Assembly: GCF_036785885.1 (NCBI RefSeq)
Contig: NC_092323.1
Location: 16,686,501-16,750,500 of the forward strand
Length of the DNA stretch: 64,000 nt
Source of the DNA: Coffea arabica
Taxonomy: Eukaryota > Streptophyta > Magnoliopsida > Gentianales > Rubiaceae
Direction of reading: 5' to 3'
Shown: piece after piece, positions 1 to 64,000 of the stretch
Position numbering within the stretch: the first letter of the stretch is position 1
Layout: the number at the start of each line of letters is the position of its first letter
The notes under the pieces: generated by a model
The model's input: the letters and a program-made list of their open reading frames with translations, nothing else
The model's database searches: none
What the model was told of the DNA's origin: nothing
Program-made: the position numbers and the translations under genes

Positions 1-55
1 ACTCATACAAAACATGCTTATATAAACATATATACAGCTATATACATCCCTTATC

Positions 56-1465
56 ATGGCCTGGAACAACCGCCGTGGTGCTAGAGGACGCAATGCGGAC
101 CGCATGAGGCAAGATGAGGAAGATGAGGCCTTACTTCTTATGAGTGCATCGTTAATGTTAATGCATCCGTCACTTGCACACGTGGATAATAATCAACCAC
201 TTCCGCAACATGATGGTTCATTCACAGATAGGCAGTGGGTGGAACGCGTACTCTACGGTCATCATAGACGCTCAATAGACAACATGCGTATCACGACTGA
301 TAATTTCTTGCTACTGTCCAATATCCTTGTCGAGAGACAGTACGTTCCACACAATTACCAACAGCGCGTGCCCATACAGGAGGCGCTTGCTATGACTTTA
401 ATGTTGGTCAGCCACAAGCATACGCACCGTGTGTTGGGGACTATTTTTGATCGATCCATCGAGACGATTAATCGAAATATAAAAAAGGTGCTCCGAGGCC
501 TGTGTCTATTTGCAGCTGAAATAATACGACCGGGTGACCAGACTGCAGTTCATCCACGAATTGCAAACTCAACTAATTTTTATCCGTGGTTCAAGGTAAT
601 GTGGAAAGAATACTGATTTTTGGCGACTCTGTAGTACGACGATTCTATAAAGTTGATTATATATTTTTTACACATATTAGGATGCCGTGGGAGCGATGGA
701 TGGCACCCACATCTCAGCTTGTCCTCCGACAGGCGAGCAAATGGCATATACAAATCGGCACGGGTGGCAATCACAGAATGTTCTGGCAGTTTGTGACCAT
801 GACATGCGCTTCATCTATGTGTATGCTGGATGGGAGGGAAGTGCACACGATGCGCGAGTGTTGGAGTCAGCATTAGCATATCCGTCCGATTTTCCACTGC
901 CGCAACCTGGTAAGTGATGGGTCCAATATTTCAAGTCAAGCATGTGCTATGCTTTATTTCCACAACTCCTATTTTTTATCGCGTTTATTAATTAGAATAA
1001 CTTTGTCAAATAGGCCAGTACTACTTAGTTGATGCGGCATACAGGAATGCTCCTGGTTTCATGCCTCCGTATAAGAACGTGGGGTCCGAATCTCCGTCAA
1101 AGACCTTGTTCAATACTCGACATTCGCAACTGCGCAATGTCATTGAGCGCACATTCGGTGTGCTTAAGAAAAGATTCAAATGGTTAAAGGGTCCGGTAGA
1201 TAATTTCTATATGAGCACTCAAATCAGTATAGTCATTGCTTGTTGTGCGTTGCACAACTTTTTAAGGATGCACCAACCAGAAGATGCTCATTTTCAACGG
1301 TTTGAATCACAAGACGTGCACTTAAATGAAGAGCCAGAAATAGGCGGGCTAGTACCTCAGCCGTTCGCATTAAACGTGTCTCCTGCAGAGCTGGCGGAAT
1401 GGAAAGCTAAACGAGACTACATAGCGACTCAAATGTATGCAGCACGAGGGCGACGCCGCCGTTAA
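56..1465 (+). CDS. PIF/Harbinger (HARBI1-like, DDE_Tnp_4) transposase, three exons, copy in E0
   Basis: DNA transposase that cuts and joins the element ends in the nucleus. Exons are 56-595, 681-909 and 1014-1465, with GT-AG borders (donors GTAATG and GTAAGT, acceptors ATTAG and AATAG). They join in frame to 406 aa, normal for plant members. An arginine-rich N-terminus (residues 5-17) and acidic stretch come first. A helix-turn-helix region follows at about 115-170 (EALAMTLMLV..RSIETINR..). The catalytic domain has Asp187 (AMDGTHI), Asp237 (GSAHDARV) and Glu301 (VIERTFGVLKKRF), plus the conserved VDAAYRN and LHNFLR blocks. An arginine cluster (RGRRRR) ends the protein. ATG 56 is chosen because the family N-terminus starts there and an intron acceptor lies just upstream. 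Its promoter and first non-coding exon lie left of the window. The assignment is firm; activity is inferred. Confidence 0.93.
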
Positions 1466-1633
1466 GTGTTCATCGCATTAAGTAGGATTGTAATTGTCCC
1501 TAAAATATATTTTCCCATGTGTAGAATGTACTTAAAATGTCCTCGATTTCCAACTTCTAAATTAATCTGTACCGTTTGGGTATTAAGTATGCAATTGGTT
1601 TAGCGTAAACGTAGTATAAAATCAAAATTTTCG

Positions 1634-1684
1634 AAGTCAAAGTCAAAATTTTCGAAGTCAAAGTCAAAGTCAAAGTCAAAGTCA
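1634..1684. repeat. GTCAAA hexamer block, E0 3' subterminal (long form)
   Basis: GTCAAA repeats in two groups separated by an AAATTTTCG spacer, the second group having five GTCA cores. On the minus strand they read TTTGAC and include several TTGACT W-box cores. The block is about 150 bases before the junction with E1. Confidence 0.8.
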
Positions 1685-1813
1685 CATGCTTAAATTCAAT
1701 AATAAGCACCTGTCCAAACGCTAATTTACACGATTTACTTGCTATCCAAACGCCTATTTCATATTTACGCGATCTTAAAAAGTAACCTAAAAAATATCCC
1801 AAATAACTTACAA

Positions 1814-1842
1814 TCCAAACAAACCCTGAGGAAGTGTTTGGA
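1814..1842. repeat. E0/E1 junction: 3' TIR - TGA - 5' TIR
   Basis: The 3' end of E0 (TCCAAACAAACCC, 1814-1826) is separated by TGA (1827-1829) from the 5' end of E1 (GGAAGTGTTTGGA, 1830-1842). Read outward-in, the two ends align as GGGTTTGTTTGGA and GGAAGTGTTTGGA, and weaker similarity continues about 30 bases, including a shared GGG. A single 3-base spacer matches the 3-bp target duplication of PIF/Harbinger, although the usual target is TAA or TTA. Confidence 0.75.
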
Positions 1843-2314
1843 AAGCATAATTGGTGGGTAATTTGAAATTTTAAGAAATTAGCGTTTGCACTGTGTAAAT
1901 AAAAGTGGTGGGGTAATTTACTGTAGAGTTCCGACATTGGATTCCTTAGGTGCAGCCTTTTGCACTAAAGTCATGCAAAAATTCATTCCTTCACGTGGCA
2001 ACTGCATTTTGACGGAAACCTGCAAAAAAAATAACCGTTGGTTGAGGAGAGTAAAGGCATTTACTCCTGAACACAGCACAAAGGCTAGAAGTGCTCCTCT
2101 ATTCGGGCCTCTCTTCGCCATTTTCATCTACCAACAGACGGGAAAGACAGCTGCAATCAAACCCAGCTTGCAGAGACGTCCGGCAAACAAGATCCTTGAC
2201 TGAAGTTTTGAATCTATCGGACGCATTTCACCCTGCCGCGGTCGACGCTTCCAACACCCAAACGGAATTTCTTGCTCCGAGCCCATTCCACTTTCTCCCT
2301 ATCTACAGCGGCAG
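1830..2314 (+). promoter_or_regulatory. Myb-gene promoter and non-coding first exon, E1
   Basis: A G-box/ABRE-like site (CACGTGGC, from 1992) and an MSA-like site (TAACCGTTGG, 2032-2041; reverse complement CCAACGGTTA) precede a C/T-rich, GC-richer stretch at about 2090-2314. That stretch ends in a strong-looking donor (GCGGCAG/GTACAA, GT at 2315). This is typical of a plant 5'-UTR first exon followed by a leader intron. The likely acceptor is the CTTAG ending at 4160, just before the coding ATG. No clear TATA box was found, so the transcription start is unknown. Confidence 0.5.
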
Positions 2315-4160
2315 GTACAATTCCCTCGATTTTCTGGATTTAGCTGCAATTTACATTCCATAAACCTGCGTTGATCTGTCTTTCTAGTTGTCCACAGCTT
2401 CATCAGCTGATTATCTCCCTTGGACACCTGATTTTGTGTTGGCTGTGTGCGAAGAGTAGATTTCGTTTATGGTAGATTAAAATGTACTTAGGATTAATTG
2501 AACCCGAATCTGAATGAATGGTGGAATAAAGCTGCTCTGGCCTTTCAAATTGGGAGGTTATGAGCATTAAAACTGGATTAACTGGATATATTGCAAGCAG
2601 GGAGATTTATTGTCTTTGGGCTTTTTTCTTATCATGGAAAGAAAATTTAATGGGGAAAATAAAATCTGTCCTGAATTTATTAGGAGGATAAGTCGATGTT
2701 AGAAGTTAATTTTGCTTTAGAATATGTCAATTTAAGCAGGTGAAATAATTGATGGTGGACAGAAGTAAAATATATTATGACCCTTAAAAAAATAAATTTA
2801 TCACCCTTAAAAAAAATAATTGAAGTAAAATATATTCTACAATTACGTAAATTAAAGATGGACAGAAGTTGTTTAATAAAGTTTTGCCAAAAAATACAAG
2901 GGATTTTCACTGCTTAATTGCATTGGCCTTTGGCAATCAGTTTTCTTTTTTTCCATGGTTTCTTTTGCTTTCTTTCCAATTAAAAAGGTTTGCCTCATAA
3001 CGCACAAGGATTGGACAAGTGTGATAGGAAACATAAAAGCAAAATATACCGGTCTGCTGTAAAATTTATAAAGTATTTAAAGTTAAATGTGGGTGGCGTC
3101 TGGATGCCCAAGGCAGTAATATGCAAAATATTACTGATAATGAGCCAACGAGTCCCTGGATTAATACTTTGAAGTTAGCAGCAAGTTACTTGTCCTTGGC
3201 ATTGATCATGTTTATTATTGAATAATAAACTCATACTTTAACGTAGTATAAGTTGTTTAATGGGATGCTATAAAATAAGTCATAACTGAGATAGTATATG
3301 AAGGAAAAGAAAAAATGGTTTTGAAGAAGAATTAAAATTGGACATATACTTGACAACAAAAGTTTACATGAGCAGCCCAGAGAAAAGAATCTTTACATTT
3401 TGAGTGTGACCCAGAACCAAAGGAAAATAAAAGGACTAGGATTTGTGCCTTTTCAACAAAGAAATTGTATCAGATTATACGGAATACATAATCCTGCACA
3501 GTTATAGATGCTTGAATTCATAACTTTTGGTTCTGTTGTAAGTCTCATTTGATGAGGTTAGATACATGTCAATTAGCTTATAGACTTGTCGATTAGGAGT
3601 CAATTACCTTATTATTGTGGGCTGCTAATTTCCAGAATTAACAGAAGCATGGGATTTTTTGTTGATCAATGGAACTTGAAAGCTAACATGCTGGGAATTT
3701 GTTTGGATGCAAACTCCCATTTGCTGTTTGGATGCATATTTTTTGCAATGAGTTAATAATTTTACTGTCCAGCTGCTGCCATTTCGGTTGTTCTGAGGCA
3801 TTTCTCTCTTCGGTTATGACCGCTGAGAAGAGGAAGAAGCCTTCTTGCGATTGTATGTTCTTTCTACGCTGTATTAGAAAGTAATTTTCGCAGCATATTC
3901 ATTGGTTAATAATACTTTTTGTTCGAATTTTGAAGCCTCACCTGTTAGCTGTACGTCCGATTGCTCTACCCGTTCGTCAACTGCATCCAACAACTACATC
4001 AAGTGCCTTGAGGTCTATTTTGAGGCAAGTGCCTTTGTTGAGTTCCTTCTGCACCTGTTTTTGCTTTCACTATTGATTGTCCAGATCTGTTTCCAAACCA
4101 CTTTAATTCAATTTCTGTTATCTCAGTCCACTGCTAACTCTTTTTCCCCATCAAACTTAG
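2315..4160 (+). other. Putative 5'-UTR intron of the Myb gene, E1 (no supported coding content)
   Basis: AT-rich sequence between the donor at 2315 and the acceptor ending at 4160. It holds small degenerate direct repeats at about 2750-2880 (GAAGTAAAATATATT twice, CCCTTAAAAAAATA twice). A possible tiny extra exon (3816-3852) is discussed under findings. The same stretch occurs at 13095-14940, 23871-25716, 34647-36492, 45439-47284 and 56231-58076. Confidence 0.45.
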
Positions 4161-4163
4161 CAA

Positions 4164-7100
4164 ATGGCTTCTAGGATTCACTGGACTGATGCAATGGATG
4201 AAGCTTTCCTCACAGCCTACGTCAGTTTTCGGGAAAATGACGTTTGGGACAAGAGGAAGTCGCTAGAGACCAACTACGACATGTTGGCAGCCCATTTGGT
4301 GAGCAATCACATATTGACTGTGACTGGCCAGCAATTGCAGACCAGATTCTATCACATCAAGAAGAAATGGGACCTGTTCTGCAATCTGCGTGGGATTTCA
4401 TCAAAAACAGAGACCGGGGTTGGGTGGAGTGAGGACAGCTACTGTTTCACTGCTGATGATGAACATTGGGCCAACTTGGAGCAGGTATGGACTTGTCGCT
4501 TCCCTGACTTCTGTTAATTGAATTTCTTTGTACTTCAGATTTGAAAGGTGACTTCAGATTCCCTATTGAACTAAAATCTGAGCACTCAATCTTGTTTAAA
4601 CTGCACTTGTTATTTAATTCTCACTTGTGTCTAATCCTTGATGCCTTTTCATCCTTGATTTTCCGGTGACTTAATCAATTTTTATATGCTGACTCCACTT
4701 GTTATTCCGTCTTATTTTCAATCCTCGAAGTCTTTTGATGAGTTAATCTTGTAGCTCAGTCATTACAATTACCTTATTAGATTGAATGATGAAAAGAACC
4801 TGTAATTTGGTGCACAACTACATATTCAATTCTGAATAGAACTAGATTTGGGTTATAAAGGGTTATAAGGGGAGGTTCCTGAATAATATAAGTATTTTCC
4901 TTGTTAAAATAACTTGAATATTTAGAGTTTTCAGTAAGCGCATGAAATTTTACATAATAAAAAAAATTACAGCTTCAATGAATTCGGATGACAACTCGGG
5001 TTACATCCCTTTTCATGAAACTCAAAAGTTAAACAATTCATTTGTTCCATCTATAACATCCCTTTTCATAACTGCATGGGCCTATCCTCGCAAGAATTTA
5101 TCCTTAGTCTCAATAATTTAACAGGCCTGCTTTAATTAAAATTTGGTGCCTTTTAGTTGCTTTGATGCCTTTTAGTTGAGACTAAATTTGGTGTCTTCTA
5201 TTTGTTGTAAAGTACAAAGGAGGAAAAAAAAAGAGTTGTTTATAGGAGAAAATTTAGTACTTTAATATTTTGCTAAACATTTTTAGTCAAATTTGTAACT
5301 GTTATATATATATATATATATATATATATCCAATTCTGGATAACCTTTTCTGAAATCAAAGTCCCTGTTCAATTAATATGGTCCGTGCAGATCTTTTCCT
5401 GCAAAGGTTGTTACTTGTTGGGACCATTACCAACTGTAACTTTGAATTTTGAATGCTGAATCTTGATCAGGATTGTCCTGGTTTATTTATTGGCAGAGTA
5501 GATAATTTTAATATCTCACCTCAGCTATGATCTTCCTCAATCCTTCCAAGTTCCAGCATTCGGGCATGGCATTTGTACTTTTGTTGATTTGACAACTCAC
5601 ATAATTGTTTGGACATAAAAAGTGTAAAATAATTTCAAGAATTAAAAATCTTATACAAAGACACGTTTGAAAAAACAAAGAAAACAAGAAAGCAAATTTC
5701 AGAGATGCATGGAATATTTCATTATGAGCTTATCAAAGCTTCTCGCCAAAGTCACACCAGAAGCAGCAGCACTTCTATGAACTTTAGAGAGCAATATGAA
5801 GAAATTTCTGAGCCATTCGAAACTTGAAAATGACCAATTGTATTCTATTTAGTGCCTGCACTGCTGATGTCAATTATAATGATACTAATGAATGGCCTTC
5901 TCATAAAGTGATGAGTTAGTGTCAAGCCTCTATCTGCACATCCCAAATTGATATCCAAACATCTTTGCTATTTTACTCTCGTTTAAATTGTTTTTTTTTT
6001 TGCATAGACAGCTGCAGTGCCAACCTTTTTTTATCTAATCTTTCATGTTCTTTCTTTTCTCCTTTCTTGATGTGCTTTTTTCGATGAATTTGACTTGTCG
6101 ATTAGTGCATTTCCTTCAATTCGTGAAATGGGATGCTGATTATTTGGTTGATTTTGGTTTTTATGGCTCCACTTATTGAAATTCTGATCATTGTCGACGA
6201 AAAAAGTTGTTTCTTTTTTTTATTCATCCTCATTTTAAGTCTTTCTTGCTGAATCTGCTTTTTTTCGAGTGTGTTTTGGAGGCTTGGTTGTGTTTTCTGT
6301 TTCTTCACAAAGTAATCAGCTGTGGCTTTGGATTCTTTTATCCTCTCTGTATGGGTTATATTGGAAGTAAGATGTAATAGTAGCAAATCAAGGCAGCATT
6401 AGTGAGTAAATTTATAAATCTGGGTTCTTGTTTCCATGATATGATTTACTTGAAGTTGGATTATCCTTCGCTTAGTTGACCATTCTTTTCTGGGCAGACG
6501 GATTAACTGGATTAGCTTTGATTGGATTATTTGACTGCAAAATGTGAAAATTGCTCGGCTTAGCTGCTGGTGATTTGTCATTCACAACTCTTTCTTTAAT
6601 ATACAGAAATATTAGCTATCGACAAAGTTTTGGATCCTGGATTTAGCTATCGACATAGTTAATTGAATTAGCATTTTCCTTGTTGAAATAACTCGAATCT
6701 TATAATAATATTTTCCTTGTACACTATCAATTCATGTGTGCTCACTTCATATTTGCATTTCACCAGACCAATGCCTCGTACGTTGACTTCAAAAAAGAGA
6801 ATTCATGCTACTGGTACGATCGGTTGACACCGCTACTGCTTGGAAGACATGCCACAGGCAGCCGTGCCCAGTCTGCAAGCGAGGTAGTTCCATCGGAACC
6901 GCCTCGCCGAGAACGGTCCAACACTGCTGCTAAAAATCGGAAGGGAAAAGGTCAAGCCTCTAGTTCGAGGGTGCCTACTCCGGTGAACGTACCAGAAGTT
7001 GAGGATGACGACGACGTCTACTATGTTCCCCCAGTTCCTGGTGCAGTTGGAGGAAAACGGTCAGCCTCAAGCTTAGGAACCAGTGGTGAACCTGAAGGGA

Positions 7101-7405
7101 GTAGAGGTTCAAAATCGACACGGTCATCTACTGGTCTTGAGGATGCTATAAGCAAGATCGGGAATTACACCGACTTCGTTCTTGAGGACAGACGGAGTAG
7201 GTCGGAGTTCGACTCCCTCTACGGCATAATGCAGTGCCAGGATGTGATCACCTCAATGGATATTCCGGACGAGTGGAGACTTGAAGCATGTGATCACTAT
7301 GCCAAATATGAGAACGAGGGTGCAAGGATTATTTTTCTTAGAGCTTCTGCAGCCGATCGCTACGGCTACATCCTCAAGTTGATGAAGCTAAAAGGCTTGG
7401 CCTAG
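4164..7405 (+). CDS. Myb/SANT-like (Myb_DNA-bind_3) accessory protein of the PIF/Harbinger element, two exons, copy in E1
   Basis: Exon 1 (4164-4484, donor CAG/GTATGG) and exon 2 (6767-7405, acceptor CACCAG) join in phase 0 to a 319-aa protein. Residues about 4-130 form a Myb/SANT-like domain typical of plant transposon ORF1 and L10-interacting MYB-like proteins. It begins IHWTDAMDEAFL, includes KKKWDLFCNL and GVGW, and continues across the splice as HWANLEQ/TNASYVDF, then LTPLLLGRHATGSRAQ. A basic, low-complexity linker (RKGKGQ, then an acidic EDDDDVYY) leads to a helical C-terminal region of about residues 240-319 (AISKIGNY to KLMKLKGLA). In Harbinger3_DR and Ping/Pong the corresponding protein binds element ends and aids transposase nuclear entry; that role is inferred here. 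The start is ATG 4164, in good context, three bases after a pyrimidine-rich CTTAG acceptor. The 2.28-kb intron is unusually long. A further upstream coding exon is possible but unproven. Residue 184 is Glu. Confidence 0.88.
4485..6766 (+). other. Intron 1 of the Myb coding region, E1
   Basis: A 2282-base intron between in-frame, phase-0 splice sites. It contains the TA microsatellite and poly-T tracts, and no credible coding region. A similar block (TTTTCCTTGTTRAAATAACT) occurs near both ends, at about 4905 and 6674, as a direct repeat. The same intron lies at 15265-17542, 26041-28318, 36817-39098, 47609-49890 and 58401-60682. Confidence 0.8.
5303..5329. repeat. (TA)n microsatellite in the Myb intron, E1
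   Basis: A 27-base run of alternating TA. It differs from the neighbouring E2 and E3, which have 23 bases. Confidence 0.9.
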
Positions 7406-8477
7406 GCATGCCAATTATGTGAAATGTTTGTACTATTAAAGTACATTGTGGATGATTGTACTTGTATAACGTGGTTGTTTGTGGATTACTTGTCCATATA
7501 ATATTAGAGATATTTATTAACTTCTTGTGAAGAAAAAATGTTTATTCATGCCAGAGGATTATGTTGCAGGGAAAATACCGTTTGCCTTTTCTTTTCTGGA
7601 ATTTTCCTGGTTGAGTTCACACTCTTATTGAGATTTCTGAATGCTATTCTTACTAGTTCAGTAAATTTGCTGTCATTGTCAATTCTAAATGCTGCATGGT
7701 ACATTTCATGAAAAATTCTGAATGAAGCTGCAGAAATAGAGGACCTGCAGAGATGTGTTTCTTTGCTTCCGGTGGTTTCAATTTTCCCAAGTTTTTCATT
7801 TTGTTGGTGTGCAATTCATTATTATTGTTTGGAGATGCATGGATATTGTTACTGTTTTGGTGCTCTGTAGCTATTTCTTTCACTTATGGTCTTCCACACA
7901 GCAGGGAAGCAGGGAGTCAAGTAAAAGTATTACTACTATTGCGTTATCTTGATGATTTTGAGTCTGACAATTGGTTATTATATTATCTGGTATCATCAGC
8001 CCTTTGTTGGTATGTCGGTCTAGTTTCAAAAGTTGCCAAGGAAATTTTTAATGAGCCCAGGAGGGAATACGTTGCAATCTCAGGGTTGTGGTACTTCTTT
8101 TCTTTTCTTTTCTTTTCTTTTCTGAACATCCATTCACACAAGCATTGGAAAGCAGGATGCTGCATTCTGGAGAATTTTAGCTTCTCACACTTCAAATCTC
8201 CTTGCAGTCCCTCGAAATTTTTAGATTGCTATAGGAACTTGAACGTGGAGAAAAAGGTATTGGAGATGGAACTGTGAGCTATGGAATGGAGATATTTACA
8301 TGCGTTCTTGGACTGGCATATGGTCCTCACAATGAAGACAGAGGACACAAAAAAGAGCATGCACCTTTTTTGTCCATTAACGCAAACTACTGTAACACCA
8401 ATCCTGAAGAACAAATAGCTGACACGCCCTAGTACTGCAATTGCTGACAAGCACATGGGTTCTATAGCATTTGTGAC
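7406..8477 (+). other. Non-coding DNA downstream of the Myb gene, E1
   Basis: This probably contains the Myb 3' UTR and the spacer before the transposase promoter. It includes a TTTTC microsatellite at 8095-8123. One long open frame here looks spurious (see rejected items). The other copies are at 18182-19253, 28958-30029, 39738-40809, 50530-51601 and 61322-62393. Confidence 0.6.
8095..8123. repeat. (TTTTC)n microsatellite downstream of the Myb gene
   Basis: About six TTTTC units with the same length in all six copies (also at 18871-18899, 29647-29675, 40427-40455, 51219-51247 and 62011-62039). Its stability contrasts with the variable TA and hexamer runs. Confidence 0.85.
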
Positions 8478-8486
8478 TAGTTCTTT

Positions 8487-9202
8487 GAGATAATTTCAGA
8501 GAGCTCCCCTAACGTTTTATTTATTTTTTTACTTAGCTCCCCTAAGGTTTGAAAAATTACACTTACCTCCCTTGATTTGATAGTTTTAGTAACAAAATCT
8601 TAAAATAAATTGATTCGGTCAAATTTTTAAATGAATACCCTAAAATGACCTGCAGTAATGAGTTTTAATTTTATGTCTATACCTACTAGTAGTAGTAGTA
8701 AGTATTTGATAAACAACAATAATATTAATAATAATTTATCATTATGATAGGATACTTTTGATGGTATTTATTATAGATTAAATTTATAAGATAGAAAAGA
8801 AGATGTTCAAATAATTCATTTAAAGTTTATGAATTTTTTGAGTAGTGGGATTTTGAAAAATTTAGATGTGATTTTGGACCATTTATTTTTTATTTATTGT
8901 TAATTTTGAGACAAAAAATAAAGATCAACAAAAACATTGGATTACTAGATGTGACATTTGGTTACATTAAAAAATAGAGGTAATAGTGGTGATTGTACAG
9001 TTTTATTGGTAAAAAATTAAGAAAAGGAATAAAAAGAAAAAAATAATTTTAAATGGCATTCTAAATATAACAAGGAAATTTCATAAAAATATTTAAGGGT
9101 AGTATTAAATGATAAGGGAGGTATGTGTAATTTTTAAAAGCTCGAGGGAGCTAAATGAAATTGTTTCTAAAAAACCTCAAGGGAGGTTTCTGAAATTATC
9201 CC
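8487..9202. mobile_element. Nested Mutator-type (MULE) MITE, 716 bp, E1
   Basis: The terminal inverted repeats are about 90 bases long and imperfect: the left arm starts GAGATAATTTCAGAGAGCTC, and the right arm on the other strand starts GGGATAATTTCAGAAACCTC. Both arms continue with matching TTAGCTCCC, AATTACAC and TACCTCCCTT blocks. The direct repeat TAGTTCTTT flanks it (8478-8486 and 9203-9211), a 9-bp target duplication characteristic of Mutator-like elements. No coding region is present, so it is a non-autonomous passenger. It sits in the non-coding gap between the Myb gene and the transposase promoter. Confidence 0.85.
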
Positions 9203-9467
9203 TAGTTCTTTTAGATGGCCAATAAAAAAGTCTCTGTAAAGTTAACTTCTCCGTATGTTTCCACTATTTGCATTTTTTGTTCTGTGTCGTGTCCTCTGAC
9301 GAGGGCCATAAATTGCGGAAATACATGTGCTATAAAGCATTCCAATTGCATGTCAAATATATCTCATGAAACGACAAAGTGAAAATTGTGGTGGAAGTTC
9401 TCTAAAAACTCCAATGTAGATCAGCGCATTTCCCACTGTTTCTTCACATTTAAGCAGTGCAATTCTC

Positions 9468-9630
9468 TATAAAAAGAACTGGCCTCTGCAATTCTCTTTT
9501 GAAAAACGAACGAAGAGGATAGAAGACAGAACGTCAAGACGAAGTGGCGACCTTTTCTTAATTAACGTGGTAGCTGTGTGCACCTCGCCGTGTGGCAACC
9601 GGAAACTACGTGCGTGCCACTGGAAGCGAG
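9468..9630 (+). promoter_or_regulatory. Transposase promoter (TATA box) and non-coding first exon, E1
   Basis: TATAAAAA at 9468-9475 is followed by a GC-richer stretch from about 9500 ending in a donor-like AGCGAG/GTAAAT (GT at 9631). The region between the TATA box and the donor has the composition of a plant leader exon and contrasts sharply with the AT-rich DNA on either side. Start of transcription and splicing are inferred. Confidence 0.55.
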
Positions 9631-10829
9631 GTAAATTGTAGACGAATGTTTTCAGTTATAAAATTGCAATCTAAATTCAATATCTTGCCATTATTTAGAT
9701 CTTTTGTATGGTAGCCGTTTATATACTCTCACTTAATGCATTGTACGAGTTATTGGTGACTAATCGTTCATATTTTACCGCTTCAAAGTGATAATAAATA
9801 TTTTGAGGTGTTACGAATTGAGTAACCTGGTCGGATGAGTTTTTTGATATAGTACGGACTGGACTTCGTTAGGCTTGGATTGTTGTTTTATAACCTCTCA
9901 CTTAATGCATTTATACATTTATATTAATATACATAATATTAATTATACATTTATACATATGATTTACATTTATAGATATGTCTCGACATAGGATTCAGAA
10001 AGCCTATTAAAGGAAGTAAATTTTTACTTTTAAGCATGCAGATACACAGGTTGTAATGTGTTGTTCTAGCTTGAGTGTCTTTGAAAACAATAAATAAATA
10101 AATAACATTTTTTTTAGGTGACGTATATGAAATAAAAAATAATTAAAACTTATATTTATGATATAAGTAAATAAAATTGTGTAAATAATCTATTTACTCA
10201 AAATGCATTGTTTGTCTTTTTAGTTGAATGAATTGAAAAAGTAACAGATATTTATAGGAATACATTCATATAATAACATTTATTTATAATTTATACATTT
10301 ATTTATAGTAATAGATAATATAATACAATTATAATATATTTATAAGAGTTTTATATAAGTAAATAAATATATTTATTCATAAATATTTATAATTGTATTA
10401 TAAATGCATAAATGTATATTTATATAAAAATATATAAATTATAAATCACAAATATATTAATTTATACATTTATATAATATTCATTTATAATTATATGTAT
10501 TTATAATAATATACATTTATACATTTATAAATATATTAGTATTAAAAGTTATATTGCCAAATACGTGCTATAAAGTCATATTGCATAGTATTCTATTTAA
10601 AAGTCATATTGCTAATTTATACTCCATAAAGCTACTTTACGTAATTGGTTTGAGAGGATGATGAAGTCTCTAATGGGACATGTCTGACCAATTACATACT
10701 TAATTTATGTCTAATGGGACATGTCTAGATTCCCGACATTTAATTTATGTCCAATACGCAAGTGGTATTAACACATTTATGGAATTGGTTATACTCATAC
10801 AAAACATGCTTATATAAACATATATACAG
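9631..10829 (+). other. Putative AT-rich 5'-UTR intron of the transposase gene, E1
   Basis: About 1.2 kb, with its central part (about 9900-10560) built of degenerate ATTTATA/ATACATTTAT repeats. Other internal repeats are CTCTCACTTAATGCATT at about 9726 and 9893, and TAATGGGACATGTCT at about 10671 and 10711. The likely acceptor is the CAG ending at 10829; its pyrimidine tract is weak. The other copies are at 20407-21605, 31183-32381, 41963-43161, 52755-53953 and, partial, 63547-64000. Confidence 0.45.
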
Positions 10830-10847
10830 CTATATACATCCCTTATC

Positions 10848-12257
10848 ATGGCCTGGAACAACCGCCGTGGTGCTAGAGGACGCAATGCGGACCGCATGAG
10901 GCAAGATGAGGAAGATGAGGCCTTACTTCTTATGAGTGCATCGTTAATGTTAATGCATCCGTCACTTGCACACGTGGATAATAATCAACCACTTCCGCAA
11001 CATGATGGTTCATTCACAGATAGGCAGTGGGTGGAACGCGTACTCTACGGTCATCATAGACGCTCAATAGACAACATGCGTATCACGACTGATAATTTCT
11101 TGCTACTGTCCAATATCCTTGTCGAGAGACAGTACGTTCCACACAATTACCAACAGCGCGTGCCCATACAGGAGGCGCTTGCTATGACTTTAATGTTGGT
11201 CAGCCACAAGCATACGCACCGTGTGTTGGGGACTATTTTTGATCGATCCATCGAGACGATTAATCGAAATATAAAAAAGGTGCTCCGAGGCCTGTGTCTA
11301 TTTGCAGCTGAAATAATACGACCGGGTGACCAGACTGCAGTTCATCCACGAATTGCAAACTCAACTAATTTTTATCCGTGGTTCAAGGTAATGTGGAAAG
11401 AATACTGATTTTTGGCGACTCTGTAGTACGACGATTCTATAAAGTTGATTATATATTTTTTACACATATTAGGATGCCGTGGGAGCGATGGATGGCACCC
11501 ACATCTCAGCTTGTCCTCCGACAGGCGAGCAAATGGCATATACAAATCGGCACGGGTGGCAATCACAGAATGTTCTGGCAGTTTGTGACCATGACATGCG
11601 CTTCATCTATGTGTATGCTGGATGGGAGGGAAGTGCACACGATGCGCGAGTGTTGGAGTCAGCATTAGCATATCCGTCCGATTTTCCACTGCCGCAACCT
11701 GGTAAGTGATGGGTCCAATATTTCAAGTCAAGCATGTGCTATGCTTTATTTCCACAACTCCTATTTTTTATCGCGTTTATTAATTAGAATAACTTTGTCA
11801 AATAGGCCAGTACTACTTAGTTGATGCGGCATACAGGAATGCTCCTGGTTTCATGCCTCCGTATAAGAACGTGGGGTCCGAATCTCCGTCAAAGACCTTG
11901 TTCAATACTCGACATTCGCAACTGCGCAATGTCATTGAGCGCACATTCGGTGTGCTTAAGAAAAGATTCAAATGGTTAAAGGGTCCGGTAGATAATTTCT
12001 ATATGAGCACTCAAATCAGTATAGTCATTGCTTGTTGTGCGTTGCACAACTTTTTAAGGATGCACCAACCAGAAGATGCTCATTTTCAACGGTTTGAATC
12101 ACAAGACGTGCACTTAAATGAAGAGCCAGAAATAGGCGGGCTAGTACCTCAGCCGTTCGCATTAAACGTGTCTCCTGCAGAGCTGGCGGAATGGAAAGCT
12201 AAACGAGACTACATAGCGACTCAAATGTATGCAGCACGAGGGCGACGCCGCCGTTAA
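10848..12257 (+). CDS. PIF/Harbinger transposase, three exons, copy in E1
   Basis: Exons 10848-11387, 11473-11701 and 11806-12257 encode the same 406-aa DDE transposase as the E0 copy, with the Asp187/Asp237/Glu301 triad intact. This is the first copy in the window with its full upstream region visible: TATA box at 9468, non-coding exon ending at 9630, and an AT-rich 5'-UTR intron whose likely acceptor is the CAG ending at 10829, 18 bases before the start codon. It lies about 3.4 kb downstream of its partner Myb gene on the same strand. The separate TATA box suggests its own transcript rather than read-through from the Myb gene. About 350 bases follow the stop codon before the 3' terminal repeat. 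Confidence 0.93.
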
Positions 12258-12425
12258 GTGTTCATCGCATTAAGTAGGATTGTAATTGTCCCTAAAATAT
12301 ATTTTCCCATGTGTAGAATGTACTTAAAATGTCCTCGATTTCCAACTTCTAAATTAATCTGTACCGTTTGGGTATTAAGTATGCAATTGGTTTAGCGTAA
12401 ACGTAGTATAAAATCAAAATTTTCG

Positions 12426-12464
12426 AAGTCAAAGTCAAAATTTTCGAAGTCAAAGTCAAAGTCA
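12426..12464. repeat. GTCAAA hexamer block, E1 3' subterminal (short form)
   Basis: Two repeat units (12 bases) shorter than in E0, E4 and E5. Confidence 0.8.
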
Positions 12465-12593
12465 CATGCTTAAATTCAATAATAAGCACCTGTCCAAACG
12501 CTAATTTACACGATTTACTTGCTATCCAAACGCCTATTTCATATTTACGCGATCTTAAAAAGTAACCTAAAAAATATCCCAAATAACTTACAA

Positions 12594-12622
12594 TCCAAAC
12601 AAACCCTGAGGAAGTGTTTGGA
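12594..12622. repeat. E1/E2 junction: 3' TIR - TGA - 5' TIR
   Basis: Same arrangement as at the E0/E1 junction, with TGA at 12607-12609. Confidence 0.75.
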
Positions 12623-13094
12623 AAGCATAATTGGTGGGTAATTTGAAATTTTAAGAAATTAGCGTTTGCACTGTGTAAATAAAAGTGGTGGGGTAATTTA
12701 CTGTAGAGTTCCGACATTGGATTCCTTAGGTGCAGCCTTTTGCACTAAAGTCATGCAAAAATTCATTCCTTCACGTGGCAACTGCATTTTGACGGAAACC
12801 TGCAAAAAAAATAACCGTTGGTTGAGGAGAGTAAAGGCATTTACTCCTGAACACAGCACAAAGGCTAGAAGTGCTCCTCTATTCGGGCCTCTCTTCGCCA
12901 TTTTCATCTACCAACAGACGGGAAAGACAGCTGCAATCAAACCCAGCTTGCAGAGACGTCCGGCAAACAAGATCCTTGACTGAAGTTTTGAATCTATCGG
13001 ACGCATTTCACCCTGCCGCGGTCGACGCTTCCAACACCCAAACGGAATTTCTTGCTCCGAGCCCATTCCACTTTCTCCCTATCTACAGCGGCAG
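12610..13094 (+). promoter_or_regulatory. Myb-gene promoter and non-coding first exon, E2
   Basis: Same layout as in E1: G-box at 12772, donor GT at 13095. Confidence 0.5.
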
Positions 13095-17900: not shown

Positions 17901-18181
17901 CATCTACTGGTCTTGAGGATGCTATAAGCAAGATCGGGAATTACACCGACTTCGTTCTTGAGGACAGACGGAGTAGGTCGGAGTTCGACTCCCTCTACGG
18001 CATAATGCAGTGCCAGGATGTGATCACCTCAATGGATATTCCGGACGAGTGGAGACTTGAAGCATGTGATCACTATGCCAAATATGAGAACGAGGGTGCA
18101 AGGATTATTTTTCTTAGAGCTTCTGCAGCCGATCGCTACGGCTACATCCTCAAGTTGATGAAGCTAAAAGGCTTGGCCTAG
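14944..18181 (+). CDS. Myb/SANT-like accessory protein, two exons, copy in E2
   Basis: Exons 14944-15264 and 17543-18181 encode the same 319 aa as the E1 copy, with Glu184. The intron is four bases shorter because of the 23-base TA run. Confidence 0.88.
16083..16105. repeat. (TA)n microsatellite in the Myb intron, E2
   Basis: A 23-base run. Confidence 0.9.
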
Positions 18182-50529: not shown

Positions 50530-51610
50530 GCATGCCAATTATGTGAAATGTTTGTACTATTAAAGTACATTGTGGATGATTGTACTTGTATAACGTGGTT
50601 GTTTGTGGATTACTTGTCCATATAATATTAGAGATATTTATTAACTTCTTGTGAAGAAAAAATGTTTATTCATGCCAGAGGATTATGTTGCAGGGAAAAT
50701 ACCGTTTGCCTTTTCTTTTCTGGAATTTTCCTGGTTGAGTTCACACTCTTATTGAGATTTCTGAATGCTATTCTTACTAGTTCAGTAAATTTGCTGTCAT
50801 TGTCAATTCTAAATGCTGCATGGTACATTTCATGAAAAATTCTGAATGAAGCTGCAGAAATAGAGGACCTGCAGAGATGTGTTTCTTTGCTTCCGGTGGT
50901 TTCAATTTTCCCAAGTTTTTCATTTTGTTGGTGTGCAATTCATTATTATTGTTTGGAGATGCATGGATATTGTTACTGTTTTGGTGCTCTGTAGCTATTT
51001 CTTTCACTTATGGTCTTCCACACAGCAGGGAAGCAGGGAGTCAAGTAAAAGTATTACTACTATTGCGTTATCTTGATGATTTTGAGTCTGACAATTGGTT
51101 ATTATATTATCTGGTATCATCAGCCCTTTGTTGGTATGTCGGTCTAGTTTCAAAAGTTGCCAAGGAAATTTTTAATGAGCCCAGGAGGGAATACGTTGCA
51201 ATCTCAGGGTTGTGGTACTTCTTTTCTTTTCTTTTCTTTTCTTTTCTGAACATCCATTCACACAAGCATTGGAAAGCAGGATGCTGCATTCTGGAGAATT
51301 TTAGCTTCTCACACTTCAAATCTCCTTGCAGTCCCTCGAAATTTTTAGATTGCTATAGGAACTTGAACGTGGAGAAAAAGGTATTGGAGATGGAACTGTG
51401 AGCTATGGAATGGAGATATTTACATGCGTTCTTGGACTGGCATATGGTCCTCACAATGAAGACAGAGGACACAAAAAAGAGCATGCACCTTTTTTGTCCA
51501 TTAACGCAAACTACTGTAACACCAATCCTGAAGAACAAATAGCTGACACGCCCTAGTACTGCAATTGCTGACAAGCACATGGGTTCTATAGCATTTGTGA
51601 CTAGTTCTTT

Positions 51611-52326
51611 GAGATAATTTCAGAGAGCTCCCCTAACGTTTTATTTATTTTTTTACTTAGCTCCCCTAAGGTTTGAAAAATTACACTTACCTCCCTTGAT
51701 TTGATAGTTTTAGTAACAAAATCTTAAAATAAATTGATTCGGTCAAATTTTTAAATGAATACCCTAAAATGACCTGCAGTAATGAGTTTTAATTTTATGT
51801 CTATACCTACTAGTAGTAGTAGTAAGTATTTGATAAACAACAATAATATTAATAATAATTTATCATTATGATAGGATACTTTTGATGGTATTTATTATAG
51901 ATTAAATTTATAAGATAGAAAAGAAGATGTTCAAATAATTCATTTAAAGTTTATGAATTTTTTGAGTAGTGGGATTTTGAAAAATTTAGATGTGATTTTG
52001 GACCATTTATTTTTTATTTATTGTTAATTTTGAGACAAAAAATAAAGATCAACAAAAACATTGGATTACTAGATGTGACATTTGGTTACATTAAAAAATA
52101 GAGGTAATAGTGGTGATTGTACAGTTTTATTGGTAAAAAATTAAGAAAAGGAATAAAAAGAAAAAAATAATTTTAAATGGCATTCTAAATATAACAAGGA
52201 AATTTCATAAAAATATTTAAGGGTAGTATTAAATGATAAGGGAGGTATGTGTAATTTTTAAAAGCTCGAGGGAGCTAAATGAAATTGTTTCTAAAAAACC
52301 TCAAGGGAGGTTTCTGAAATTATCCC
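51611..52326. mobile_element. Nested Mutator-type MITE, E5
   Basis: Same insertion as in the other units; 9-bp repeats at 51602-51610 and 52327-52335. Confidence 0.85.
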
Positions 52327-52591
52327 TAGTTCTTTTAGATGGCCAATAAAAAAGTCTCTGTAAAGTTAACTTCTCCGTATGTTTCCACTATTTGCATTTT
52401 TTGTTCTGTGTCGTGTCCTCTGACGAGGGCCATAAATTGCGGAAATACATGTGCTATAAAGCATTCCAATTGCATGTCAAATATATCTCATGAAACGACA
52501 AAGTGAAAATTGTGGTGGAAGTTCTCTAAAAACTCCAATGTAGATCAGCGCATTTCCCACTGTTTCTTCACATTTAAGCAGTGCAATTCTC

Positions 52592-52754
52592 TATAAAAAG
52601 AACTGGCCTCTGCAATTCTCTTTTGAAAAACGAACGAAGAGGATAGAAGACAGAACGTCAAGACGAAGTGGCGACCTTTTCTTAATTAACGTGGTAGCTG
52701 TGTGCACCTCGCCGTGTGGCAACCGGAAACTACGTGCGTGCCACTGGAAGCGAG
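52592..52754 (+). promoter_or_regulatory. Transposase promoter and non-coding first exon, E5
   Basis: TATA box at 52592, donor GT at 52755; upstream of the transposase gene at 53972. Confidence 0.55.
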
Positions 52755-53971
52755 GTAAATTGTAGACGAATGTTTTCAGTTATAAAATTGCAATCTAAAT
52801 TCAATATCTTGCCATTATTTAGATCTTTTGTATGGTAGCCGTTTATATACTCTCACTTAATGCATTGTACGAGTTATTGGTGACTAATCGTTCATATTTT
52901 ACCGCTTCAAAGTGATAATAAATATTTTGAGGTGTTACGAATTGAGTAACCTGGTCGGATGAGTTTTTTGATATAGTACGGACTGGACTTCGTTAGGCTT
53001 GGATTGTTGTTTTATAACCTCTCACTTAATGCATTTATACATTTATATTAATATACATAATATTAATTATACATTTATACATATGATTTACATTTATAGA
53101 TATGTCTCGACATAGGATTCAGAAAGCCTATTAAAGGAAGTAAATTTTTACTTTTAAGCATGCAGATACACAGGTTGTAATGTGTTGTTCTAGCTTGAGT
53201 GTCTTTGAAAACAATAAATAAATAAATAACATTTTTTTTAGGTGACGTATATGAAATAAAAAATAATTAAAACTTATATTTATGATATAAGTAAATAAAA
53301 TTGTGTAAATAATCTATTTACTCAAAATGTATTGTTTGTCTTTTTAGTTGAATGAATTGAAAAAGTAACAGATATTTATAGGAATACATTCATATAATAA
53401 CATTTATTTATAATTTATACATTTATTTATAGTAATAGATAATATAATACAATTATAATATATTTATAAGAGTTTTATATAAGTAAATAAATATATTTAT
53501 TCATAAATATTTATAATTGTATTATAAATGCATAAATGTATATTTATATAAAAATATATAAATTATAAATCACAAATATATTAATTTATACATTTATATA
53601 ATATTCATTTATAATTATATGTATTTATAATAATATACATTTATACATTTATAAATATATTAGTATTAAAAGTTATATTGCCAAATACGTGCTATAAAGT
53701 CATATTGCATAGTATTCTATTTAAAAGTCATATTGCTAATTTATACTCCATAAAGCTACTTTACGTAATTGGTTTGAGAGGATGATGAAGTCTCTAATGG
53801 GACATGTCTGACCAATTACATACTTAATTTATGTCTAATGGGACATGTCTAGATTCCCGACATTTAATTTATGTCCAATACGCAAGTGGTATTAACACAT
53901 TTATGGAATTGGTTATACTCATACAAAACATGCTTATATAAACATATATACAGCTATATACATCCCTTATC

Positions 53972-55381
53972 ATGGCCTGGAACAACCGCCGTGGTGCTAG
54001 AGGACGCAATGCGGACCGCATGAGGCAAGATGAGGAAGATGAGGCCTTACTTCTTATGAGTGCATCGTTAATGTTAATGCATCCGTCACTTGCACACGTG
54101 GATAATAATCAACCACTTCCGCAACATGATGGTTCATTCACAGATAGGCAGTGGGTGGAACGCGTACTCTACGGTCATCATAGACGCTCAATAGACAACA
54201 TGCGTATCACGACTGATAATTTCTTGCTACTGTCCAATATCCTTGTCGAGAGACAGTACGTTCCACACAATTACCAACAGCGCGTGCCCATACAGGAGGC
54301 GCTTGCTATGACTTTAATGTTGGTCAGCCACAAGCATACGCACCGTGTGTTGGGGACTATTTTTGATCGATCCATCGAGACGATTAATCGAAATATAAAA
54401 AAGGTGCTCCGAGGCCTGTGTCTATTTGCAGCTGAAATAATACGACCGGGTGACCAGACTGCAGTTCATCCACGAATTGCAAACTCAACTAATTTTTATC
54501 CGTGGTTCAAGGTAATGTGGAAAGAATACTGATTTTTGGCGACTCTGTAGTACGACGATTCTATAAAGTTGATTATATATTTTTTACACATATTAGGATG
54601 CCGTGGGAGCGATGGATGGCACCCACATCTCAGCTTGTCCTCCGACAGGCGAGCAAATGGCATATACAAATCGGCACGGGTGGCAATCACAGAATGTTCT
54701 GGCAGTTTGTGACCATGACATGCGCTTCATCTATGTGTATGCTGGATGGGAGGGAAGTGCACACGATGCGCGAGTGTTGGAGTCAGCATTAGCATATCCG
54801 TCCGATTTTCCACTGCCGCAACCTGGTAAGTGATGGGTCCAATATTTCAAGTCAAGCATGTGCTATGCTTTATTTCCACAACTCCTATTTTTTATCGCGT
54901 TTATTAATTAGAATAACTTTGTCAAATAGGCCAGTACTACTTAGTTGATGCGGCATACAGGAATGCTCCTGGTTTCATGCCTCCGTATAAGAACGTGGGG
55001 TCCGAATCTCCGTCAAAGACCTTGTTCAATACTCGACATTCGCAACTGCGCAATGTCATTGAGCGCACATTCGGTGTGCTTAAGAAAAGATTCAAATGGT
55101 TAAAGGGTCCGGTAGATAATTTCTATATGAGCACTCAAATCAGTATAGTCATTGCTTGTTGTGCGTTGCACAACTTTTTAAGGATGCACCAACCAGAAGA
55201 TGCTCATTTTCAACGGTTTGAATCACAAGACGTGCACTTAAATGAAGAGCCAGAAATAGGCGGGCTAGTACCTCAGCCGTTCGCATTAAACGTGTCTCCT
55301 GCAGAGCTGGCGGAATGGAAAGCTAAACGAGACTACATAGCGACTCAAATGTATGCAGCACGAGGGCGACGCCGCCGTTAA
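53972..55381 (+). CDS. PIF/Harbinger transposase, three exons, copy in E5
   Basis: Exons 53972-54511, 54597-54825 and 54930-55381. Same 406-aa product with intact triad; long hexamer block downstream. This is the last complete transposase gene in the window; that of E6 lies beyond the right edge. Confidence 0.93.
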
Positions 55382-55549
55382 GTGTTCATCGCATTAAGTA
55401 GGATTGTAATTGTCCCTAAAATATATTTTCCCATGTGTAGAATGTACTTAAAATGTCCTCGATTTCCAACTTCTAAATTAATCTGTACCGTTTGGGTATT
55501 AAGTATGCAATTGGTTTAGCGTAAACGTAGTATAAAATCAAAATTTTCG

Positions 55550-55600
55550 AAGTCAAAGTCAAAATTTTCGAAGTCAAAGTCAAAGTCAAAGTCAAAGTCA
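55550..55600. repeat. GTCAAA hexamer block, E5 3' subterminal (long form)
   Basis: Long form, as in E0 and E4. Confidence 0.8.
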
Positions 55601-55729
55601 CATGCTTAAATTCAATAATAAGCACCTGTCCAAACGCTAATTTACACGATTTACTTGCTATCCAAACGCCTATTTCATATTTACGCGATCTTAAAAAGTA
55701 ACCTAAAAAATATCCCAAATAACTTACAA

Positions 55730-55758
55730 TCCAAACAAACCCTGAGGAAGTGTTTGGA
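55730..55758. repeat. E5/E6 junction: 3' TIR - TGA - 5' TIR
   Basis: TGA at 55743-55745 between the two terminal repeats. Confidence 0.75.
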
Positions 55759-61000: not shown

Positions 61001-61321
61001 GGTGAACCTGAAGGGAGTAGAGGTTCAAAATCGACACGGTCATCTACTGGTCTTGAGGATGCTATAAGCAAGATCGGGAATTACACCGACTTCGTTCTTG
61101 AGGACAGACGGAGTAGGTCGGAGTTCGACTCCCTCTACGGCATAATGCAGTGCCAGGATGTGATCACCTCAATGGATATTCCGGACGAGTGGAGACTTGA
61201 AGCATGTGATCACTATGCCAAATATGAGAACGAGGGTGCAAGGATTATTTTTCTTAGAGCTTCTGCAGCCGATCGCTACGGCTACATCCTCAAGTTGATG
61301 AAGCTAAAAGGCTTGGCCTAG
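58080..61321 (+). CDS. Myb/SANT-like accessory protein, two exons, copy in E6 (Ala184 variant)
   Basis: Exons 58080-58400 and 60683-61321; C at 60912 gives Ala184. Same protein as in E4 and E5. Its partner transposase lies outside the window. Confidence 0.88.
59219..59245. repeat. (TA)n microsatellite in the Myb intron, E6
   Basis: A 27-base run. Confidence 0.9.
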
Positions 61322-62402
61322 GCATGCCAATTATGTGAAATGTTTGTACTATTAAAGTACATTGTGGATGATTGTACTTGTATAACGTGGTTGTTTGTGG
61401 ATTACTTGTCCATATAATATTAGAGATATTTATTAACTTCTTGTGAAGAAAAAATGTTTATTCATGCCAGAGGATTATGTTGCAGGGAAAATACCGTTTG
61501 CCTTTTCTTTTCTGGAATTTTCCTGGTTGAGTTCACACTCTTATTGAGATTTCTGAATGCTATTCTTACTAGTTCAGTAAATTTGCTGTCATTGTCAATT
61601 CTAAATGCTGCATGGTACATTTCATGAAAAATTCTGAATGAAGCTGCAGAAATAGAGGACCTGCAGAGATGTGTTTCTTTGCTTCCGGTGGTTTCAATTT
61701 TCCCAAGTTTTTCATTTTGTTGGTGTGCAATTCATTATTATTGTTTGGAGATGCATGGATATTGTTACTGTTTTGGTGCTCTGTAGCTATTTCTTTCACT
61801 TATGGTCTTCCACACAGCAGGGAAGCAGGGAGTCAAGTAAAAGTATTACTACTATTGCGTTATCTTGATGATTTTGAGTCTGACAATTGGTTATTATATT
61901 ATCTGGTATCATCAGCCCTTTGTTGGTATGTCGGTCTAGTTTCAAAAGTTGCCAAGGAAATTTTTAATGAGCCCAGGAGGGAATACGTTGCAATCTCAGG
62001 GTTGTGGTACTTCTTTTCTTTTCTTTTCTTTTCTTTTCTGAACATCCATTCACACAAGCATTGGAAAGCAGGATGCTGCATTCTGGAGAATTTTAGCTTC
62101 TCACACTTCAAATCTCCTTGCAGTCCCTCGAAATTTTTAGATTGCTATAGGAACTTGAACGTGGAGAAAAAGGTATTGGAGATGGAACTGTGAGCTATGG
62201 AATGGAGATATTTACATGCGTTCTTGGACTGGCATATGGTCCTCACAATGAAGACAGAGGACACAAAAAAGAGCATGCACCTTTTTTGTCCATTAACGCA
62301 AACTACTGTAACACCAATCCTGAAGAACAAATAGCTGACACGCCCTAGTACTGCAATTGCTGACAAGCACATGGGTTCTATAGCATTTGTGACTAGTTCT
62401 TT

Positions 62403-63118
62403 GAGATAATTTCAGAGAGCTCCCCTAACGTTTTATTTATTTTTTTACTTAGCTCCCCTAAGGTTTGAAAAATTACACTTACCTCCCTTGATTTGATAGT
62501 TTTAGTAACAAAATCTTAAAATAAATTGATTCGGTCAAATTTTTAAATGAATACCCTAAAATGACCTGCAGTAATGAGTTTTAATTTTATGTCTATACCT
62601 ACTAGTAGTAGTAGTAAGTATTTGATAAACAACAATAATATTAATAATAATTTATCATTATGATAGGATACTTTTGATGGTATTTATTATAGATTAAATT
62701 TATAAGATAGAAAAGAAGATGTTCAAATAATTCATTTAAAGTTTATGAATTTTTTGAGTAGTGGGATTTTGAAAAATTTAGATGTGATTTTGGACCATTT
62801 ATTTTTTATTTATTGTTAATTTTGAGACAAAAAATAAAGATCAACAAAAACATTGGATTACTAGATGTGACATTTGGTTACATTAAAAAATAGAGGTAAT
62901 AGTGGTGATTGTACAGTTTTATTGGTAAAAAATTAAGAAAAGGAATAAAAAGAAAAAAATAATTTTAAATGGCATTCTAAATATAACAAGGAAATTTCAT
63001 AAAAATATTTAAGGGTAGTATTAAATGATAAGGGAGGTATGTGTAATTTTTAAAAGCTCGAGGGAGCTAAATGAAATTGTTTCTAAAAAACCTCAAGGGA
63101 GGTTTCTGAAATTATCCC
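62403..63118. mobile_element. Nested Mutator-type MITE, E6
   Basis: Same insertion as in the other units; 9-bp repeats at 62394-62402 and 63119-63127. Confidence 0.85.
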
Positions 63119-63383
63119 TAGTTCTTTTAGATGGCCAATAAAAAAGTCTCTGTAAAGTTAACTTCTCCGTATGTTTCCACTATTTGCATTTTTTGTTCTG
63201 TGTCGTGTCCTCTGACGAGGGCCATAAATTGCGGAAATACATGTGCTATAAAGCATTCCAATTGCATGTCAAATATATCTCATGAAACGACAAAGTGAAA
63301 ATTGTGGTGGAAGTTCTCTAAAAACTCCAATGTAGATCAGCGCATTTCCCACTGTTTCTTCACATTTAAGCAGTGCAATTCTC

Positions 63384-63546
63384 TATAAAAAGAACTGGCC
63401 TCTGCAATTCTCTTTTGAAAAACGAACGAAGAGGATAGAAGACAGAACGTCAAGACGAAGTGGCGACCTTTTCTTAATTAACGTGGTAGCTGTGTGCACC
63501 TCGCCGTGTGGCAACCGGAAACTACGTGCGTGCCACTGGAAGCGAG
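63384..63546 (+). promoter_or_regulatory. Transposase promoter and non-coding first exon, E6
   Basis: TATA box at 63384, donor GT at 63547. The coding region it would serve lies beyond the window edge. Confidence 0.5.
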
Positions 63547-64000
63547 GTAAATTGTAGACGAATGTTTTCAGTTATAAAATTGCAATCTAAATTCAATATC
63601 TTGCCATTATTTAGATCTTTTGTATGGTAGCCGTTTATATACTCTCACTTAATGCATTGTACGAGTTATTGGTGACTAATCGTTCATATTTTACCGCTTC
63701 AAAGTGATAATAAATATTTTGAGGTGTTACGAATTGAGTAACCTGGTCGGATGAGTTTTTTGATATAGTACGGACTGGACTTCGTTAGGCTTGGATTGTT
63801 GTTTTATAACCTCTCACTTAATGCATTTATACATTTATATTAATATACATAATATTAATTATACATTTATACATATGATTTACATTTATAGATATGTCTC
63901 GACATAGGATTCAGAAAGCCTATTAAAGGAAGTAAATTTTTACTTTTAAGCATGCAGATACACAGGTTGTAATGTGTTGTTCTAGCTTGAGTGTCTTTGA

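Follow-up and report, generated by a model that had tools for sequence, protein, structure and literature searches.

A tandem array of gene-intact PIF/Harbinger-type transposons in Coffea arabica, probably joined at their terminal inverted repeats

Tandem arrays of whole DNA transposons are described for Bari1, a Tc1-mariner element of Drosophila melanogaster, and for hobo, an element of the same fly that belongs to the hAT superfamily. The h39 array of Bari1 is composed of about 80 head-to-tail copies, and a smaller cluster has six (PMC8834629, PMC4877112). Bari1 junctions run from right terminal inverted repeat (TIR) to left TIR with two terminal bases lost, and a rolling-circle origin has been proposed (PMC8834629, PMC4877112). 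A 2022 review of Bari elements states that the authors know of no comparable organisation described for a transposable element (PMC8834629). For hobo, 13-19 tandem copies are present in one strain according to the summary in PMC7214746, and hobo dimers are proposed there to come from double insertion, from circles, or from recombination between long terminal repeats. The subject of the present analysis is a stretch of 64,000 nucleotides from Coffea arabica (contig NC_092323.1, positions 16,686,501 to 16,750,500), referred to as the window, and the two-gene PIF/Harbinger-type element that is repeated along it. The window is probably the interior of a young macrosatellite made up of whole, gene-intact PIF-type elements that meet TIR to TIR, whatever seeded it. 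Whole-transposon arrays of the Bari1 type are known, and the evidence supports the PIF/Harbinger superfamily as what is new here.

The array fills the window with 0 bases left over. With bases 1-10792 as query, BLAST returns six units in the window in a single orientation, with starts at 1, 10793, 21569, 32345, 43125, and 53917. Five units are full length, and unit 6 ends at the window edge, 10,084 bases in. Identity to the query, unit 1, is 99.85-99.97% for the other five units. Recurring 31-mers account for 99.85% of those in the window, and their spacings are nearly all 10,776, 10,780, or 10,792 bp. Recurrence on the other strand amounts to 0 31-mers across the window, with no inverted copies, which rules out chance or inverted repeats. 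The initial annotation, made from the letters of the window, described a pure head-to-tail, same-orientation array of near-identical ~10.78-kb units, and the 31-mer and BLAST evidence agree in confirming it. Over the visible 5.93 units, the repeats are direct, tandem, several kilobases long, and near-identical, as in a macrosatellite. An array of whole elements of this kind is rare because PIF/Harbinger elements are usually dispersed in the genome.

Each unit carries the two genes of a PIF/Harbinger element. Once GT-AG introns are removed, both are open from start to stop in all six units. The transposase is a 406-aa protein encoded by three exons and is identical in 6/6 units. It matches PF13359 (DDE_Tnp_4) with an E-value of 1.1e-30 over the whole profile (1-158 of 158); weaker, secondary Pfam matches are to PF04827 (Plant_tran, E 6.7e-11) and DDE_Tnp_1. 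Putative catalytic residues, picked by inspection, are D187, D237, and E301. The other gene, open reading frame 1 (ORF1), has two exons and encodes a 319-aa Myb/SANT protein that matches PF12776 (Myb_DNA-bind_3) at E 7.9e-07, above the cut-off. Across the two genes of all units, the sole amino-acid difference is E184A, carried by the Myb protein in units 4-6. A DDE_Tnp_4, IS5-related transposase accompanied by a Myb/SANT-like second gene is the gene content that identifies PIF/Harbinger elements. The earlier claim that every unit has both genes is upheld by PF13359 and PF12776 in 6/6 units. The accompanying label "autonomous" appears, from the sequence, to hold for gene intactness only, as the candidate TIRs are imperfect.

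Intact genes in 6/6 units would also be seen if the locus held domesticated host genes clustered in tandem, derived from a transposase and a Myb protein and no longer mobile. Co-domestication of PIF/Harbinger proteins is described in insects (PMC9710019). This explanation is highly unlikely for the window, where TIR-like ends lie 3 bp apart and the catalytic domain is complete. Selection is not demonstrated by intactness, which is uninformative on this point because the units are so young.

The gene order and exon counts are those of a PIF-like element. PePIF1 of Phalaenopsis encodes ORF proteins of 272 and 427 aa, with the Myb/SANT protein first and the transposase second (PMC6327408). Here, likewise, a Myb gene of two exons is followed by a transposase gene of three. 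The ORF order and a similar TIR consensus are shared with plant PIF-like elements (PePIF1, MtMaster, and other MtPH families). The plant two-ORF elements in the available part of the table in PMC6327408 are 4.2-5.1 kb long with target-site duplications of TTA, ATA, or "3 bp", whereas the element described here is 10.8 kb, is flanked by TGA, and lies in tandem. None of the entries in that part of the table has TGA, and one PIF element has ATA. PIF/Harbinger elements of Medicago reach 25 kb (PMC2213677).

At E up to 1, the transposase has no sequence match among the chains in the PDB. With the single protein as query, no close relative was found in viral contigs (four pattern-matching stretches, 0 confirmed) or in prokaryote genome contigs (seven pattern matches, 0 confirmed). 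The absence from viral and prokaryote contigs is expected of a plant element, and a plant is also the most likely host to judge from the relatives of the genes and TIRs. Upstream of the Myb gene, a possible 5' leader at 2040-4163 has, by inspection, a donor-like CAG/GTACAA at 2312 and an acceptor-like CTTAG abutting the start codon. The putative leader intron would measure ~1.8 kb.

The candidate element ends lie at a junction found in every unit. The sequence CCAAACAAACCC-TGA-GGAAGTGTTTGG is located 337-349 bp 3' of the transposase stop codon in 6/6 units, the range being set by a 12-bp indel. The same 27 bp recur in all six units, with further starts at 12595, 23371, 34147, 44939, and 55731. 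TIRs of the superfamily are 14-25 bp long and of the form G(N)5GTT. The rule applied to the ends, published for Medicago, requires this form and allows up to 4 mismatched positions out of 14 (PMC2213677). Both arms of the junction, read outward from TGA, satisfy it, with 10/14 identical bases. By inspection, the right arm GGGTTTGTTTGGATT agrees at 13 of 15 positions with the MtPH-A6-2 consensus GGCTMTGTTTGGATT (consensus from PMC2213677). Framed by these candidate ends, the element runs from the left TIR through the Myb gene and the transposase gene to the right TIR. The assignment of the left TIR, and with it the back-to-back reading of the units, is made from sequence and is very probably correct. 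One repeat unit most likely corresponds to exactly one element, adjacent units then meeting TIR to TIR across a 3-bp spacer. The probable ends of the element are an addition to the initial annotation, which had none.

Several counts single out this junction. The candidate was first spotted by eye, and all its probabilities are thus post hoc. Back-to-back TIR pairs with spacers of 0-20 occur at two places in the circular unit, 1827 (spacer 3, 4 mismatches) and 3237 (spacer 9, 3 mismatches). Pairs with a spacer of 3 number one in the real unit, at 1827, vs one in total across 300 order-1 resampled units. These resampled units are the fair control, a threshold of 12/16 being unfair for a junction with 11/16; all controls described as shuffles, the flank shuffles given below included, are order-1 resamplings and not exact dinucleotide shuffles. 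Inward GTTTG motifs within 130 bp on either side reach a count of 5 at 13 of 10,792 positions, all of them in 1824-1836. Within 120 bp of the junction, exact inverted matches reach a maximum length of 13 bp (15/16 when extended). This length is equalled at 3 of 482 sampled positions outside the AT-rich stretch, all near the junction, and is attained by 3 of 2000 flank shuffles. The AT-rich stretch is taken as 9600-10760 in this count (482 of 540 positions kept) and as 9690-10650 in the 12-bp TIR count. When GG ends are required on both arms together with at least 10/16, two positions are left, 1827 (TGA) and 6892 (ATC).

Other observations weigh against the proposed ends. The TIR identity of only 10/14 is exactly at the limit of the rule, and the triplet between the TIRs is TGA, vs the TTA or TAA typical of the superfamily. 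Twelve places on the + strand, 1830 included, agree with the right TIR at 10 or more of its 14 positions where 7.9 are expected, in a scan that passed over windows overlapping the query. With so many equal matches, 1830 is therefore notable by its exact 3-bp spacing and the motifs around it. The 12-bp TIR comparison gives 23 positions at 9/12 or better, 17 of them outside the AT-rich stretch, and match count alone is not special. Local alignment scores at or above that of the junction are found at 118 of 2156 positions, of which the top 60 are all in the AT-rich stretch. Among 40 listed overlapping windows, 38 beat the junction's score of 14, and 3693 scores 14 too. The 3 bp between the TIRs read TGA, and the outer flanks of the array fall outside the window; equal triplets at the two sides of an element prove nothing, because repetition forces identity. 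The window itself shows neither an array end nor a solitary copy nor a long read.

A second candidate for the left end, at 3695, also counts against the junction. The sequence there, GAATTTGTTTGGAT, is the best match to the right TIR in the unit, at 12/14 with 0.09 expected per unit, and an extra GTTTGGA lies 25 bp inward. It is either a rival left end or the remnant of a related nested element. As the left end, it would make the repeat an 8.9-kb element plus ~1.87 kb of neighbouring DNA, copied by tandem segmental duplication. Such a repeat is unlikely. Its flank triplets would be unequal, TGG vs TGA, and three features at 1830 would all become coincidence: the TIR that faces another across exactly 3 bp, the peak of motifs, and the inverted match of 13 bp.

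The aligned units differ by 10 variant events, made up of eight substitutions, a 12-bp indel, and a 4-bp (TA)2 indel. Five distinct versions are present among the six units, units 2 and 3 being identical. This pair and the extreme identity overall would suit an assembly artefact in which the assembler had replicated one copy or a short tandem. An artefact is quite unlikely with five versions in six units and a nested pattern of sharing between neighbours. Both indels are more than 12 bases away from the start of every one of the 13 homopolymer runs counted, which argues against the artefact as well and rules out sequencing noise.

At six of the 10 variants, each state is present in at least two units, and the sharing tracks unit position. 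Sixteen of the 720 possible orders of units require equally few changes. Unit 4 is a mosaic: it has the type of units 2-3 at unit positions 1655-2396 and the type of units 5-6 at 6996. At unit position 10206 it has the unit 5 type, and unit 6 lacks coverage there. Variants shared by neighbours are the pattern expected from unequal crossing-over between adjacent units and suggest that this process has operated. Since six of the 10 are common to neighbouring units, exchange would have been active since seeding, whatever the seed. Two site pairs fail the four-gamete test, both with the 12-bp indel as a member. The force of these two conflicts is reduced by the repeat-like nature of that indel, which may have slipped twice; recurrent slippage could explain both because both include it.

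Unit 5 has four changes of its own within 1,003 bp. Such clustering arises in ~1.5 of 100,000 cases, as judged post hoc from 200,000 random draws, and suggests that a more divergent copy beyond the window donated this tract by gene conversion. The mean pairwise difference between units is 3.0 per 10,084 columns. At a plant substitution rate of 7e-9 per site per year, this gives a rough figure of ~21,000 years, either for the age of the array or for the time since its last homogenisation.

The junction and a nested miniature inverted-repeat transposable element (MITE) with its flanking duplication are, like the intact genes, present throughout the array, and both are identical in 6/6 units. The joining and the MITE insertion therefore predate amplification. 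Six independent insertions are ruled out, as the junctions are identical and separate events are unlikely to share one junction. We infer a TIR-to-TIR junction made by a single founding join, with later expansion by unequal exchange. One MITE-bearing element would have joined once, head to tail, to itself or to a sister, and in the founding dimer the facing TIRs would have been separated by one target-like triplet of 3 bp. As the seed, the likeliest event would be insertion of a second copy into the target triplet beside the first. Double insertion is favoured because only ordinary transposition is required. The dimer would then have been expanded and homogenised as its 10.8-kb direct repeats underwent unequal crossing-over and gene conversion. 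Unequal crossing-over, replication, and circles had been listed earlier as possible routes. A single join followed by unequal exchange is now favoured because of the one shared junction and the neighbour-shared variants, and the list is not narrowed to one.

An array of whole elements could also have been seeded by a circle, which is the main, if tentative, alternative. A circle closed TIR to TIR, with 3 bp at the joint, would have given a rolling-circle or multimeric product that integrated in one event. The same junction in 6/6 units and the non-standard triplet suit a circle junction. A rolling-circle origin has already been proposed for Bari1 (PMC8834629, PMC9659126), and circles of the plant DNA transposon VANDAL21 are described in Arabidopsis mutants (PMC10462705). 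One event leaves later mutations that are independent, yet most variants here, six of the 10, are common to neighbours. A narrow literature search on Harbinger circles or rolling circles was without result, which is weak evidence. Double insertion and a circle both yield the observed junction, and the window fits either. The fuller proposal, that the transposase itself made the array by forming a 3-bp-spaced TIR-TIR circle that was replicated and integrated as a concatemer, is doubtful. If true, the locus would be a second independent case of the Bari1 type, this time in a plant, and every unit would remain a functional transposon with both genes that could serve as a donor.

The array resembles those of both fly transposons. 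Like Bari1, the elements are whole and lie head to tail, very probably right TIR to left TIR, with one junction scar throughout and recombination inferred between copies. The right-to-left junction is the same in all copies (6/6), given the left-TIR assignment. Unlike Bari1, the superfamily and host are different, 3 bp lie between the ends where Bari1 has lost two bases, and 5.93 units are visible vs ~80 copies in h39. Like hobo, copies of a DNA transposon are in tandem, and seeding by double insertion at one target is proposed for hobo too. Unlike hobo, the superfamily is PIF/Harbinger, and hobo has 13-19 copies. The Tetris TIR-220 satellites and the central repeats of Helentrons are also tandem DNA of transposon origin (PMC9659126, PMC7214746). 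There, amplification is confined to a fragment or an internal repeat, whereas here it takes in the whole two-gene element.

Among the matches listed from the open-licence literature, judged by title and the beginning of the abstract, there is no tandem array of whole PIF/Harbinger elements and no comparable plant case. The array had been called unusual, which holds within PIF/Harbinger, where no case was found, and not for DNA transposons at large, as the Bari1 and hobo arrays are precedents. Its description as a macrosatellite-like array of whole PIF/Harbinger elements is retained, with intact genes in six units and probable TIR-to-TIR junctions. Arrays of whole transposons have been proposed as an early step in the formation of satellite DNA, one that is seldom observed. 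A very young, gene-intact PIF array, with one junction common to all units and variants common to neighbours, would extend the phenomenon to a different superfamily and probably to a different kingdom. Whether double insertion or a circle seeded it should be readable from the edges of such an array and from solitary copies. The array also raises the question of whether many clustered, intact transposase genes drive transposition or trigger silencing.

Table 1. Coordinates in the window of the tandem array, its elements, and the features within them.
Feature	Position	Strand	Description
Tandem array	1..64000	+	5.93 units of 10,776-10,792 bp; both array ends beyond the window
Element-element junction (candidate)	1815..1841	.	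Putative right TIR, TGA (1827-1829), putative left TIR
Complete element 1	1830..12606	+	10,777 bp, left TIR to right TIR (as assigned)
Complete element 2	12610..23382	+	10,773 bp
Complete element 3	23386..34158	+	10,773 bp
Complete element 4	34162..44950	+	10,789 bp
Complete element 5	44954..55742	+	10,789 bp
Subterminal inverted pair AAATTAGCGTTTG	1715..1888	- at 1715, + at 1876	One copy each side of the junction
Second terminus-like sequence GAATTTGTTTGGAT	3695-3735		GTTTGGA 25 bp further in; right TIR matched 12/14
Myb/SANT gene (ORF1) exon 1	4164..4484	+	Present in every unit
Myb/SANT gene (ORF1) exon 2	6767..7405	+	E184A variant in units 4-6
Transposase exon 1, complete element 1	10848..11387	+	GT-AG splicing
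Transposase exon 2	11473..11701	+	GT-AG splicing
Transposase exon 3	11806..12257	+	GT-AG splicing
12-bp indel	1655..1666	.	Missing in units 2-4; sits in a short repeat
(TA)2 indel	5303..5306	.	ORF1 intron; missing in units 2 and 3
Four unit-5-only changes	45923..46925	.	Unit positions 2799, 3292, 3796, 3801; span 1,003 bp
Nested MITE	8487..9202	.	716 bp; inverted ends GAGATAATTTCAGA / GGGATAATTTCAGA; perfect 9-bp duplication TAGTTCTTT; 6/6 units
AT-rich stretch	9901..10600	.	8-29% GC per 100 bp; degenerate short repeats and inverted repeats; each element

The remaining features of the element are minor. Two further open reading frames, of 174 aa and 126 aa, have no Pfam match at E up to 0.1 and are treated as non-coding. 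Within 1-12700, there is no Rfam match at the gathering score and no tRNA. The 9-bp duplication of the nested MITE presumably reflects a Mutator-type origin. The AT-rich stretch is located upstream of the transposase gene. A (TA)n run at 5303-5329 lies within the ORF1 intron; in one Medicago PIF/Harbinger subfamily, a (TA)n run is found in the transposase intron (PMC2213677).

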